37,430 bases of DNA. Source: a virus. This document shows positions 2,373 to 16,401 of this stretch, piece by piece. Where the stretch lies: the IMG/VR virus record IMGVR_UViG_3300000227_000260, positions 1 to 37,430 of that record; one strand, written 5' to 3'. Each line of letters opens with the position of its first letter. Position 1 is the stretch's first letter. The translations under genes and the position numbers were made by a program. The notes beneath the pieces are model-generated. The model ran no database searches. It saw only the letters and a list, made by a program, of their open reading frames with translations, and was not told the DNA's origin.

Positions 2373-2446
2373 TGGCTGGGCAGAAAAGATTCGAACTTTT
2401 TCTAAATGGACCAAAACCACTTGTGCTACCGTTACACTACTGCCCA
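2373..2446 (-). tRNA. tRNA-Gln (anticodon UUG), CCA encoded
   Basis: The minus strand folds as a cloverleaf. The acceptor TGGGCAG pairs with CTGCCCA, the discriminator is G, and CCA is encoded (2373-2375). The D arm is GTGT/GCAC, the anticodon stem AGTGG/CCATT holds loop TTTTGGT with anticodon TTG, and the T arm is AAAAG-TTCGAAT-CTTTT. The U1 start is typical of bacterial and phage tRNA-Gln. It reads CAA, common in AT-rich genes. Confidence 0.93.
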
Positions 2447-2447
2447 A

Positions 2448-2522
2448 TGGCTCCGGGAGTTGGACTTGAACCAACAACTACTCGGTTAACAGCCGAGATT
2501 TCTACCATTGAAATATCCCGGA
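2448..2522 (-). tRNA. tRNA-Asn (anticodon GUU), CCA encoded
   Basis: The acceptor TCCGGGA pairs with TCCCGGA, the discriminator is G, and CCA is encoded at 2448-2450. The anticodon stem CTCGG/CCGAG encloses loop CTGTTAA, giving anticodon GTT. The T arm GTTGG-TTCAAGT-CCAAC is intact. It is one nucleotide from tRNA-Gln, so both are probably cut from one precursor. Confidence 0.95.
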
Positions 2523-2531
2523 ATTATATAA

Positions 2532-2603
2532 AGCCAGTTAGAGGAATCGAACCTCTATCTCCTGAATATAAAACAGGAATATTAACCTTTATAATAAACT
2601 GAC
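2532..2603 (-). tRNA. tRNA-like gene, probable tRNA-Ile (anticodon UAU), atypical
   Basis: The acceptor GTCAGTT pairs with AACTGGC (one G-U pair) and the T arm AGAGG-TTCGATT-CCTCT is perfect. The anticodon stem CCTGT/TCAGG has a U-U mismatch at 31:39, loop TTTATAT and anticodon TAT, which would decode AUA. The D arm is weak (three clear pairs). Unlike its three neighbours it does not encode CCA, and its discriminator is U. It may be functional, since AUA codons are abundant here, or it may be decaying. Confidence 0.65.
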
Positions 2604-2606
2604 AAA

Positions 2607-2683
2607 TGGTGCATTCGCTGAAATTCGAATTCAGGACCCCAACATTAAAAGTGTTGTGCTCTAACCAACTGAGCTACGAATGC
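2607..2683 (-). tRNA. tRNA-Lys (anticodon UUU), CCA encoded
   Basis: Canonical cloverleaf: acceptor GCATTCG/CGAATGC, D arm GCTC/GAGC, anticodon stem CAACA/TGTTG with loop CTTTTAA (anticodon TTT), T arm CTGAA-TTCGAAT-TTCAG, discriminator A and encoded CCA at 2607-2609. Its first ten nucleotides are also the end of the upstream small gene, whose TAG stop is tRNA positions 8-10. It decodes AAA, very common in this genome. Confidence 0.96.
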
Positions 2684-11870: not shown

Positions 11871-13021
11871 ATTGAGTTAACCACATCACATATTCGTTTA
11901 AGATCTTCTTCTATAAGATCTGGATGGTTAGGAAGATATAAACCATGTTTATCTACAATATCACAATTAGGACATGGAATATCAAAATTTATAGTAAAGT
12001 TTTTAAAGAAAGGTTGATTTTTCATACTTCCACATACAAGAGGTCTAGTTTCTATATTATTATCTTTAAGAGCTTTTACAAGTTTCATTCTATCTGCACT
12101 TAGAATAGGATAGGCAAAATTAGATGTAAAACTATTTTCCAATGGTTTAATTTTCCAGAAGTTATTCTTAATATTAGCCTGATAGTAATTGAAGTTTTTG
12201 TTTCTCTTTGCTATTAATTCGGGTAGTTTAAGAATTTGACCTTGGCCTATTTTAGCCTGTAAGTCAGTAGATCTTACGTTGAATCCAGGATAATAGAATG
12301 TATATTGGTTTTGAAATTCATCTATTTGATAATGGTCCATCATTTTTTTGTTATATTCGTTATCCCAGTCCCGGCCCCATCCATGATTTCTAATGCTGAG
12401 CAGAATCCTATATAAATCTAGATTATCAGTAGAAATCATTCCACCTTCTATTGTAGATATATGATGGCCGAAAAACATTGAGAATGAAGACATTTCACCA
12501 AATGTTCCAAGTTTTTGATTGTTAAAAGTACTGCCCATAGATTCGCATACATCTTCAACTAGTATAACATTATATTTGTTACATAATTCTATTATCTTAG
12601 TCATATCCGGAGAAAAACCAAGTATTGATACACAAATAAATAATTTTGGAGAGAATTCTTTGAATATTCTTTCAAGACATTCTAAGTCTACAGATAAATT
12701 TTCTAAATTGCAATCGCATAAAATTGGTTTAAGATTTGTTTGGATTATAGGAGCAAGATCAGTTGCCCAGCATAAAGAAGGAACTACTACTTTATTATTT
12801 AATAAACCTGAATAATATAAAGAATGAAGCATAAGTAAATTAGCTGATGATCCAGAATTGACATAAACTGAATATTTTCTTCCCAGCCATTCTGACCATT
12901 GTTTTTCAAATATCCATGTTTGTTCACCTTTGGTAAGTTTAGGATTAGTTTGAAGCCATAATATAAGATTTTGAATATCATTATTATTAATTGTATCACC
13001 GATAAGATTTATTTTATTCAT
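11867..13021 (-). CDS. DegT-fold protein with PLP lysine replaced by histidine (ColD/RfbH-like dehydratase candidate)
   Basis: A 384-residue member of the DegT/DnrJ/EryC1 fold. It keeps NSGSSANLLML (55-65) and LVEDVCESMGS with D157. Where aminotransferases have the Schiff-base lysine, the sequence reads SMFFGHHISTIEGG (181-194), placing His186 at the lysine position. The same Lys-to-His change defines PMP-dependent sugar 3-dehydratases such as ColD and RfbH, which remove the 3-OH in dideoxysugar pathways. I see no clear [2Fe-2S] cysteine set, so it is closer to the ColD situation. Alternatively it is a non-catalytic paralog. Coupled to GT25 upstream and GT10 downstream by 4-bp overlaps. Confidence 0.78.
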   Translation of the reverse strand: MNKINLIGDTINNNDIQNLILWLQTNPKLTKGEQTWIFEKQWSEWLGRKYSVYVNSGSSANLLMLHSLYYSGLLNNKVVVPSLCWATDLAPIIQTNLKPILCDCNLENLSVDLECLERIFKEFSPKLFICVSILGFSPDMTKIIELCNKYNVILVEDVCESMGSTFNNQKLGTFGEMSSFSMFFGHHISTIEGGMISTDNLDLYRILLSIRNHGWGRDWDNEYNKKMMDHYQIDEFQNQYTFYYPGFNVRSTDLQAKIGQGQILKLPELIAKRNKNFNYYQANIKNNFWKIKPLENSFTSNFAYPILSADRMKLVKALKDNNIETRPLVCGSMKNQPFFKNFTINFDIPCPNCDIVDKHGLYLPNHPDLIEEDLKRICDVVNSI

Positions 13022-13695
13022 AGTTTTAATCCCGAATTTTTTACACTTGCTAAAAATTGCAAATCAAGTCTAACTGATGTTCCATACATTGAATCTCGTT
13101 TTTCTAAGTCTGAATAAGAATTAAACTGTAATGCTATTATAGGAAATAACATTATTGTTTTATATTTAATCTGAATAATATCTGATAGAATTACATCATT
13201 ATAGTCACAATGTTTCAATGGTTCTTTTACATTGTTATATCGTTCTATGATTTCATCAAAAACTGTATTTTTATAACAGACTGCATGAGCCGCATATATT
13301 TGTTTTGTTGTTACAATATTATCAGTAATAGGAATAAGTTTTCTTCCTACTGTATTAGCTCCAAGATAGAATAAATCCCAATTAATATTATTAGATTTAA
13401 TTTGATTTATTCCTTTAGAAAGAGTTTCCAAAGGTTTAAATTGATCTAAAAAACAAACATCATCTTCAAATATAAGTATATGATCAAGTTTATCTATTTT
13501 AGCCTGATTAAATATGTTAATAAAAGATTTTAAAAGTCCTATTCTACCATTCAAATGTTCAATAGCAGAAAATCGTTTAACTTTATTTTGTATTCCTACT
13601 TTGTTAAATTCTTTTTGAACTAAATTCCATCTGTCAATACGCCGATCTAAATTAATACAATAAATTTGTTCAAAATAATCAAATGGATTTTCCAT
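13018..13695 (-). CDS. glycosyltransferase family 25 (LPS-type)
   Basis: A 225-residue protein with the GT25 opening YCINLDRRIDRW (12-23) and the metal-binding ILIFEDDV near residue 73-80, as in lipooligosaccharide galactosyltransferases and similar enzymes. The later GANTVGR and HAVCYKN blocks are also in family positions. It is the first gene of the glycan operon after tRNA-Ala, whose 3' end is about 20 bp upstream. Acceptor and donor are not predictable from sequence. Confidence 0.85.
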   Translation of the reverse strand: MENPFDYFEQIYCINLDRRIDRWNLVQKEFNKVGIQNKVKRFSAIEHLNGRIGLLKSFINIFNQAKIDKLDHILIFEDDVCFLDQFKPLETLSKGINQIKSNNINWDLFYLGANTVGRKLIPITDNIVTTKQIYAAHAVCYKNTVFDEIIERYNNVKEPLKHCDYNDVILSDIIQIKYKTIMLFPIIALQFNSYSDLEKRDSMYGTSVRLDLQFLASVKNSGLKL

Positions 13696-13715: not shown

Positions 13716-13792
13716 TGGTGAAGCTAATGGAATTTGAAACCATAACATCCAACTTGCAAAGCTGGTACTCTAGCCAATTGAGTTATAGCCCC
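13716..13792 (-). tRNA. tRNA-Ala (anticodon UGC), CCA encoded
   Basis: The acceptor GGGGCTA/TAGCTTC contains the G3-U70 wobble pair that is the main alanine identity element. The D arm is ACTC/GAGT, the anticodon stem CCAGC/GTTGG holds loop TTTGCAA (anticodon TGC), and the T arm is ATGG-TTTCAAA-TTCCAT-like with CCA encoded at 13716-13718. It starts two bases after the 209-nt structured RNA, so both are likely on one precursor. Confidence 0.94.
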
Positions 13793-13794
13793 AA

Positions 13795-14003
13795 AACAGA
13801 AGAACTTTAGCTCAGTTCTAATAGCGCTCCGCTTAAACTTAATTGCTATTATGGCAATCCCGATTATCCAGCCATATGGCGCGTTGAGTCAAGTCTCGGT
13901 CAACTTGCTGAGTTCACAACTCTCGGGCATTCAATCAAGTGTTAAGTCACTTTTCAATGATTGAATCTATTGTACCCACCTTCTCGGTTATTGTTCTTCT
14001 GTT
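13795..14003 (-). ncRNA. structured RNA of unknown class, 209 nt
   Basis: On the minus strand an 11-bp helix pairs the two ends (AACAGAAGAAC at 13993-14003 with GTTCTTCTGTT at 13795-13805). Inside, hand folding gives nested elements: a long hairpin with a 9-bp stem ATTCAATCA/TGATTGAAT topped by AGTG/CACT (13929-13966); a helix CCCGA/TCGGG (13923-13927 with 13859-13863) closing hairpins GAGTT/AACTC, CAAGT/ACTTG and GCC/GGC; and further hairpins ATTGC/GCAAT and AGCG/CGCT. The segment is visibly richer in G+C than its surroundings and has no open frame. CCGAGA occurs three times. It does not show the signatures of tmRNA, RNase P RNA or 6S RNA that I know. It precedes tRNA-Ala directly. Confidence 0.72.
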
Positions 14004-14158: not shown

Positions 14159-14467
14159 TTATTTTACTTCGAAATTTTCATCTACAACACATATAATATT
14201 TTCTATCTTTGTTATACAAATAGGATAAGTTTCTCCAAAAGTAGAAAAATGATCAAATAGAACTACATCTCCGACTTTAAGACCTTCTTTAGTTGCCAAA
14301 GGTCCAATTGATTCTACTTTGCCTTTGCACAAATTACCGCCTGCATCTACTTTTTCTGGAATTACAATCCCTTCTTTAGTAACTCTCTGATGATACTTTT
14401 CCATTTTTCTAATTACAACTTTATCTTCAACTGCTGTTAACTTTTTATCTAATTCTGTTATTAACAT
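14159..14467 (-). CDS. GroES-like co-chaperonin (functional analogue of T4 gp31)
   Basis: A 102-residue Cpn10 fold: VVIRKME (17-23), the mobile loop ending in EGIVIPEK (32-39), then CKGKVESIGP, GLKVGDVVLFD (62-72) and a final strand IENIICVVDE. The hydrophobic GIVIP tripeptide region is where GroES contacts GroEL. No GroEL-like gene is in the window, so it would cap the host chaperonin, as T4 gp31 does when folding the major capsid protein. It lacks the long insert of gp31 and is closer to bacterial GroES length. An RBS-like AAGGAGAA precedes the ATG. Confidence 0.88.
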   Translation of the reverse strand: MLITELDKKLTAVEDKVVIRKMEKYHQRVTKEGIVIPEKVDAGGNLCKGKVESIGPLATKEGLKVGDVVLFDHFSTFGETYPICITKIENIICVVDENFEVK

Positions 14468-14477
14468 GAATTTCTCC

Positions 14478-14969
14478 TTAAATATTTTTAAGTTTTTGTT
14501 TAATTATTTTATTAATATAATGGCTTGTAGCATATTTTTTAGGATTATCTACCTCAATTATTTGATATGCATTTTTCATAGATTTCTTATTTATGCAATC
14601 AAAACAAATTGTACAATACCAACCATTTATATTATGTAAAAATCCGGGATTGCCACATTCTTCGCAGACATAGGCTGACATATGTTCAAATGCTGATATA
14701 ATTCCATTTGCATATGAATTAGATTTTGACATATTAGTATAAAATCTAAGAGTACCAAATTTTTCTTTTACTTGAGTAGCTTCTATTTTAAGATTTGTAT
14801 CATTTTGCATTACATGTTCTAACATAACACAAAGTTGATTAATTAGATCATACCAACCATCGCCACATTCAATCCCCCAGCACATACAAGTTTGAGACAT
14901 ATTTAAATCTTTTTGTCTAAATATATCAGGCCAATTTTCAAATAATTGTTTTTGTAATTTAGGAGTCAT
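14478..14969 (-). CDS. conserved phage protein with two CxxC pairs
   Basis: A 163-residue protein of a type common in phages but without assigned function. Landmarks are GDGWYDLINQLC (36-47), QVKEKFGTLRFY (66-77), and a zinc-ribbon-like pair C102-x2-C105 and C122-x2-C125 separated by GWYC. This looks like a small metal-binding protein that might recognise nucleic acid. Its start lies within the end of the methyltransferase gene (11-bp overlap), so both are probably expressed together. I do not know its function. Confidence 0.7.
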   Translation of the reverse strand: MTPKLQKQLFENWPDIFRQKDLNMSQTCMCWGIECGDGWYDLINQLCVMLEHVMQNDTNLKIEATQVKEKFGTLRFYTNMSKSNSYANGIISAFEHMSAYVCEECGNPGFLHNINGWYCTICFDCINKKSMKNAYQIIEVDNPKKYATSHYINKIIKQKLKNI

Positions 14970-16401
14970 AATTATTTATTCTTGCTTCTGCTATTTTCAT
15001 ATAATCTTTTTCTTTTTCTATGCCTATAAAGTCAAATCCCTCTTGTTTACAAGCAATTCCTGTACTTCCACTTCCCATAAATGGATCAAGAACTACACCA
15101 CCTTGAGGTGTAATAAGCCTTACAAGATACTTCATAAGTTTCAAAGGTTTTACTGTCGGATGATTATTCTTTGATGTCATCGCATATCTTTCTTTAAGAG
15201 TTTTTGAATTATGAGGTTTATTTATATTTATTTGTTTTTCTTCAAATTCATCGAGACCTTTATTTCTTTCTTTTTTATCTACTTTTGCACAATAAAAGAA
15301 ACGAGATGCGCCATGAAATCTTTGTTTTGTTGTTGTACTTTGTTGCAATGTATTCCTATCATACATATTAAATTTCATATTATGATTTTGCGATGTCCAA
15401 TCCTTCCTATCTCTACTCTGTTCATCCATAATCTTTACTGGACAATCTTCAACACATTCCCATTGCTCAACTGTTTTAATAGTATCTGTTACAAACTTTG
15501 CATCATCATCTTTTTTATAATTACCAGTAATAAGTTGTTTTGATTTAATTACTTTTGTCTCAATATATTTGCAATCTTTGCTATGAGATAAAATCAAATT
15601 AGCAGGGAAACGACCACAATTATTTAGTTTTACTACTGAGTCTATTGCTCCTAACATTTTATTATCTTCTTCATTCATTTTCACTTTACATCCATCTATA
15701 TTTATCCCACCTGTTCTATACTTTAAAACATTTTCTACTATTGTCTTTTCATTCAATGGCTTTCTACAAAGTATTATTGGCTCCCATGCTGGCTTTAATG
15801 CTGTTCCCCAACCTTTCCATTCAGAAATGTCTTTGGTTAATAATTCACTCCTTTTAATCTCTGTTTGTCCTTCAAATTTATTCTTTGAAAAACTTCCAGT
15901 CTTTGTTTCAGCATTGCATTCCCGGATTATTTTTTCTCCTACAACCTTCCTTTCATTCTCTTGCAACTTATCAACAACTTTGCCAATATTGAGTGATTTT
16001 GGAAATCCATTCCCATAGCACCAAGCCATCAAAGGTGCTGTATTGTATTCATGTGCATATCCTATACTATCCCTTATTTCAAATCCCGCTATCCTCAATG
16101 AAAGACATATTAAATCCATTGTCCTTGTTCCAGCAAAACACAAAACATGTCCACCTGGTTTCAAAACACGATATACTTCTTTCCATAAAATAGGTTGAGG
16201 CACAAAAGCATCCCATTCCTTTCCCATAAATCCTCTACTACTCTTAACATTATGGTAACCTATTTCAATCCAATCCTTCAACATTGCCAATGCATTTGGT
16301 TCTTTGCCTAATCCATAAGGCGGATCTGTAACTACGCTATCTATACTATTATCTGAAAGTTCTTTTAATTTTTCTAAACAATCACCTAATATTAATTTCA
16401 T
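14959..16401 (-). CDS. DNA methyltransferase, N6-adenine or N4-cytosine, beta-class
   Basis: A 480-residue SAM-dependent DNA methyltransferase. The catalytic motif DPPY (26-29) comes before the SAM-binding DPFMGSGSTG (439-448), the beta-class order. A long middle region (about 150-430) with GYAHEYNTAP, ASRFFYCAKVDKKERN and HPTVKPLKLM(K)YLVRL contains the target-recognition part. No partner restriction gene is present, so it is an orphan, probably protecting phage DNA from host restriction. DPPY occurs in both m6A and m4C enzymes, so the target base is open. G+C seems slightly higher than in the neighbours. Confidence 0.9.
   Translation of the reverse strand: MKLILGDCLEKLKELSDNSIDSVVTDPPYGLGKEPNALAMLKDWIEIGYHNVKSSRGFMGKEWDAFVPQPILWKEVYRVLKPGGHVLCFAGTRTMDLICLSLRIAGFEIRDSIGYAHEYNTAPLMAWCYGNGFPKSLNIGKVVDKLQENERKVVGEKIIRECNAETKTGSFSKNKFEGQTEIKRSELLTKDISEWKGWGTALKPAWEPIILCRKPLNEKTIVENVLKYRTGGINIDGCKVKMNEEDNKMLGAIDSVVKLNNCGRFPANLILSHSKDCKYIETKVIKSKQLITGNYKKDDDAKFVTDTIKTVEQWECVEDCPVKIMDEQSRDRKDWTSQNHNMKFNMYDRNTLQQSTTTKQRFHGASRFFYCAKVDKKERNKGLDEFEEKQININKPHNSKTLKERYAMTSKNNHPTVKPLKLMKYLVRLITPQGGVVLDPFMGSGSTGIACKQEGFDFIGIEKEKDYMKIAEARINNYDS

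Follow-up and report, generated by a model that had tools for sequence, protein, structure and literature searches.

Phage T4 encodes, in its tRNA region, two stable RNAs, C and D, whose function is unknown. Two further phage-encoded RNAs of unknown function are found near tRNA islands: GOLLD, which is structured, often located near such islands and often more than 800 nt long, and ROOL (PMC12286853). Here we analysed a virus record of 37,430 bases and 27% GC (hereafter the window), in which a stretch of 209 nt beside a tRNA-Ala gene had been proposed, from the letters alone, to be a new structured RNA. Structured RNAs close to phage tRNAs are a known kind, as GOLLD and ROOL illustrate; the candidate structured non-coding RNA described here (13795-14003, minus strand) is smaller and fits no Rfam family.

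Genomic setting and composition of the region

The phage carrying the RNA is AT-rich and T4-like, and the genes of the window lie on the minus strand. They encode T4-type replication proteins, including a DnaB-like helicase, SbcC, SbcD, a single-strand binding protein, NrdD and NrdG. The helicase is only about 26-30% identical to its best matches in INPHARED, and that collection holds no close relative of the phage. Alignment of NrdD within IMG/VR identified two relatives at 65-66% (L007 and L008), both on contigs that stop short of the RNA region, while an IMG/VR search with the Cpn10 and SbcD peptides recovered no relatives and a methyltransferase search recovered none that was close (best 47%). 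The DNA methyltransferase of the window (14959-16401) carries insertions relative to its phage relatives.

Directly upstream of the candidate RNA is a gene for a Cpn10/GroES-like co-chaperonin (14159-14467, minus strand; Pfam PF00166, PHROG 3188), for which tblastn identified no relative in INPHARED. On the downstream side are a tRNA-Ala gene (TGC) with an encoded CCA (13716-13792, minus strand; called by ARAGORN and matching Rfam RF00005 with 57 bits) and a glycosyltransferase family 25-like gene (13018-13695, minus strand; Pfam PF01755). Since the minus strand carries the tRNA-Ala as well as the two genes flanking the RNA region, we read the region on that strand too, from 14003 to 13795. 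In agreement with the original prediction, two bases (13793-13794) are all that separates it from the tRNA-Ala on the same strand. The remaining four tRNAs of the window (Gln, Asn, Ile and Lys; 2373-2683, minus strand) are tightly packed, 1-9 nt apart. Further along, between 3041 and 13021, is a block of surface-sugar genes encoding NeuB, a CMP-sugar cytidylyltransferase, two DegT aminotransferases, GT11, a B12-binding radical SAM protein and an MptE-like protein; it looks like a block for nonulosonic acid synthesis.

The region had been described as richer in G+C than its surroundings, and it stands at 41% against 27%. Stretches of 209 nt that are equally GC-rich make up 0.4% of the window and are confined to the four-tRNA cluster, the RNA region and one coding place. 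Among the features of 13795-14003, no other single sign is as strong as this GC island. The claim that the region has no open frame holds for the minus strand, which is without an ORF of at least 20 aa; on the plus strand, frames reach up to 37 aa. CCGAGA does occur three times within the RNA (13982-13987, 13921-13926 and 13894-13899, all minus strand), and a single further minus-strand copy exists within 37 kb. A GC-rich 6-mer in three copies appeared in 0.1% of shuffles, and any 6-mer in three copies in 9%. A T4-late-like octamer, TATAAAAT, is situated at 14023-14016, 13-20 bases upstream of the RNA 5' end; it means little in this position because the same octamer is present 18 times in the window. 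No terminator-like site was found at the RNA region.

We compared the sequence with known RNA classes using cmscan and Rfam 15, applied to the whole window at the gathering threshold and to the region at E<=10. The only matches were to tRNA and, by chance and outside the RNA region, to a snoRNA; the region itself matched no family, even at E<=10. The GOLLD and ROOL models were likewise unmatched at this limit, and the region, at 209 nt, is indeed shorter than either RNA. ARAGORN, run with its tmRNA and intron options, finds only the tRNA-Ala, consistent with the earlier view that the region is not a tmRNA. At normal thresholds it reports no intron-bearing tRNA at the region, and only a lowered threshold brings up a plus-strand tRNA-Val call.

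Predicted fold

The fold calculated for the minus strand recovers most of the helices that had been proposed from inspection of the sequence. In the 11-bp end-to-end helix, the 5' strand AACAGAAGAAC (13993-14003) pairs perfectly with the 3' strand GTTCTTCTGTT (13795-13805), with pairing probabilities of 0.95-1.0 except for the outermost pair, and of about 1 for the inner pairs. The long two-step hairpin (13929-13966) consists of 9 bp, ATTCAATCA/TGATTGAAT, followed by 5 bp, AAGTG/CACTT, mostly at probabilities of 0.93-1.0. Several small hairpins had also been proposed, and three are found, all on the minus strand: GAGTT-GTG-AACTC (13910-13922, probability about 0.94), CAAGT...ACTTG, whose loop region contains CCGAGA (13890-13907, about 0.93), and GCC-ATAT-GGC (13871-13880, 0.78). 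The multibranch loop closed by CCCGA/TCGGG fared differently, this being a minority helix with a probability of about 0.24 that lies 0.5 kcal/mol above the minimum. The proposal of a new structured RNA is therefore retained in that the region is absent from Rfam, GC-rich, strongly folded and non-coding, and is revised as to the multibranch loop.

One further pairing was absent from the proposed helices. A core hairpin, TAATAGC-N19-GCTATTA (13819-13851, minus strand), resembles that of an element of Acinetobacter phages described below. It competes with other pairings and is not the preferred one in the window RNA: taken alone it costs +1.3 kcal/mol relative to the minimum and has a probability of about 0.05.

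None of 200 shuffles was as stable as the RNA region, with z values of -3.4 for the minus strand and -4.9 for the plus strand; because both strands beat their shuffles, the fold does not tell which strand is used. In absolute energy no other 209-nt stretch of the window is as stable. A GC-corrected energy scan places the region at -2.3 to -2.5 SD, a value equalled by a few coding stretches, and about nine further loci of the window carry 11-base perfect inverted repeats at like spacing, most of them AT-only. By themselves, the helix and the folding energy are thus weaker signs than they look.

An intergenic element of Acinetobacter phages as a candidate relative

Close homologues of the window RNA were not found in INPHARED, IMG/VR (searched by pattern), PLSDB or GTDB contigs, and exact patterns of RNA segments and tRNA-Ala arms had no matches in the IMG/VR pattern searches. 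With the RNA alone as query, blastn at relaxed limits (2.3 Gb) returned as its top match 59 nt of Acinetobacter phage vB_AbaM_D22 (D22), with an E value of 0.7. This match corresponds to the 3' 59 nt of the window RNA and is unannotated in D22. A plasmid match with an E value of 0.6 was taken as chance. We also judged as chance the six matches to a triple CCGAGA pattern, in GC-rich contigs (62-69% GC) with no tRNA nearby, and the two GTDB matches to a strict core pattern (Tolypothrix, apparently coding, and Salinivirgaceae), both without tRNA. Across 50 phage records, a stem-only pattern matched the Acinetobacter phages and, by chance, one other sequence, an AT-rich one. In IMG/VR the strict core pattern matched only two contigs, both of which we take to be Saclayvirus, and provided no bridging sequence.

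The surroundings of the D22 match form an element of about 200 nt that folds with a 15-bp end-to-end helix and has no match in Rfam. It is conserved at 81-85% in more than 10 Saclayvirus records, with the 3' part present in five more; copies are located at L183:2361-2562, in L186-L193 and, at L198:1372-1563, in a further record. The element is intergenic and lies alone near the genome end, beside an annotated terminal repeat in several records, and the stretches scanned contain no tRNA beside it. Near its 3' end, a 32-nt core hairpin (UAAUAGC...GCUAUUA) stays nearly invariant as far as the divergent Acibel004, in which the loop is changed and one inner pair is changed on both sides, with the stem kept. 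The block TAATAGCAATTGAGCGNNAGCGAACGCTATTA is invariant in the Saclayvirus alignment while its surroundings vary. In hairpin 1 of the element, four of the five pairs show both-side compensatory changes among four sequences that were hand-aligned on the hairpin. The end-to-end helix is predicted at 11 bp in Acibel004 and 15 bp in D22, is interrupted in phiAbaA1 and is missing from the fold of Aci01-1. We take the element to be a real structured RNA. A search of the literature, which was not exhaustive, found no expression data for it. Short hypothetical ORFs are annotated across the element in some records. An ORF opposite the core was rejected, as its frame is interrupted by a stop in phiAbaA1 and has no start in D22.

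We interpret the window RNA as probably a distant relative of this element, the match being suggestive rather than proven. Both are about 200 nt long and intergenic, have no conserved coding and form a series of short hairpins; both can form the UAAUAGC...GCUAUUA hairpin near the 3' end and have a U-rich 3' strand; and an end-to-end helix is predicted for D22 and Acibel004, though not for Aci01-1. The element differs in its position near the genome end, in having no adjoining tRNA and in the sequence of its end helix. The blastn match coincides with that block of the element which is most conserved, and the window shares the 7-bp core stem at the corresponding 3' position, followed by about a dozen bases and then by the 3' strand of the end helix. 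When set against the core pattern UAAUAGC-NNUUGA-NN-N4-NN-GAAN-GCUAUUA, the window has an identical stem, a partly kept loop and one insertion. A covariance model of the core (R2) assigns 27.3 bits to the window; members reach 49-55 bits, and across 1.39 Mb no unrelated sequence exceeds 20.5. The window has lost the tandem G-A found in the internal loop of the element, and it lacks the GUGCAAG(A) motif conserved before hairpin 1.

Sequence upstream of the core had no role in finding the blastn match. It shows co-linear similarity to phiAbaA1 (global p 0.004) and to Rocket (p 0.016), these p values being calculated against real phage sequence of like GC. The upstream parts of D22, Aci01-1, KIMZ-24 and Acibel004 are not significantly similar to the window, and the middle part is not similar. 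With four clades compared, we regard the upstream similarity as moderate evidence.

A serious competitor, to which we give somewhat less than an even chance, is that the window RNA is independent of the Acinetobacter element and that the shared hairpin arose by chance. An E value of 0.7 in 2.3 Gb and the lack of a bridging sequence in IMG/VR are in line with this, as is the behaviour of a longer covariance model (R1), with which the window fails to outscore a chance match that the core pattern had selected. It accounts poorly for a match that coincides with the most conserved block of a structured intergenic element, at the same 3' position, and for the upstream co-linearity with phiAbaA1. Independence of the two RNAs would be compatible with the rest of the explanation that we favour.

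Proposed nature of the RNA and comparison with known systems

On balance, we favour the interpretation that the phage carries here a gene for a structured non-coding RNA, about 209 nt long, which would act in trans and is more probably than not kin to the Acinetobacter element. Its transcription, on the minus strand, would either take in the upstream cpn10 and the tRNA-Ala downstream or start at a promoter close by. Cleavage by RNase P at the 5' end of the tRNA-Ala would then fix the 3' terminus of the RNA, and both termini may be protected by the 11-bp end-to-end helix. We infer that the RNA would act in trans, most likely as a stable protein-binding RNA, a scaffold or decoy whose putative protein contact points are the UAAUAGC hairpin and the CCGAGA sites; that a protein binds repeatedly, at the three copies of CCGAGA and at the conserved hairpin, is a guess. 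The wider proposal, that phage RNAs of about 200 nt with a nearly invariant 3' hairpin constitute a new family, common to Saclayvirus and an unrelated T4-like phage and acting in trans during infection, is in our view evenly balanced.

It is improbable that the region serves instead as a leader or spacer that is processed from the tRNA-Ala precursor, with a fold that aids processing or protects the precursor and a fragment that is degraded after RNase P cleavage. The two-base distance to the mature tRNA, on the same strand, would suit such a role, but 209 nt with five hairpins far exceeds the requirements of a leader, the window's remaining four tRNAs make do with spacings of 1-9 nt, and no tRNA adjoins the candidate relatives in the stretches scanned. 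Because the Acinetobacter element is located near the terminal repeat, away from tRNA genes, action in trans is favoured over a mere tRNA leader. The tRNA adjacency of the window RNA may itself be incidental, since the RNA of the candidate family elsewhere is not next to a tRNA.

We consider it very unlikely that the region is no RNA gene and instead a MITE-like DNA element, mobile or of the inverted-repeat type, whose short sequence is bounded by 11-bp terminal inverted repeats. Perfect repeats do flank a sequence of foreign composition, yet the region is a single copy in the record and has no copies in any collection searched, its flanks show no target-site duplication, and internal hairpins are unnecessary for a MITE. 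Equally slight is the chance that the region, lying between same-strand genes, is a DNA-level signal or a cis-acting mRNA structure governing the downstream glycosyltransferase gene, as the tRNA-Ala sits between the two and would be cut out, and a terminator-like site is lacking.

The favoured reading, a trans-acting phage RNA, can be set beside the RNAs already described near phage tRNA genes. RNAs of only about 200 nt would, as a small family, lend themselves to study more readily than the giants GOLLD and ROOL, and if the Acinetobacter element is kin, cultured phages carrying the RNA already exist. RNAs C and D of T4 are like the window RNA in their tRNA-region setting and are shorter. GOLLD is like the candidate window RNA in being a phage-encoded structured RNA near tRNA genes and differs in size, often surpassing 800 nt where the window RNA measures 209 nt. 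ROOL is also phage-encoded near tRNA and, in contrast to the window RNA, is much larger, has multiple pseudoknots and is octameric.
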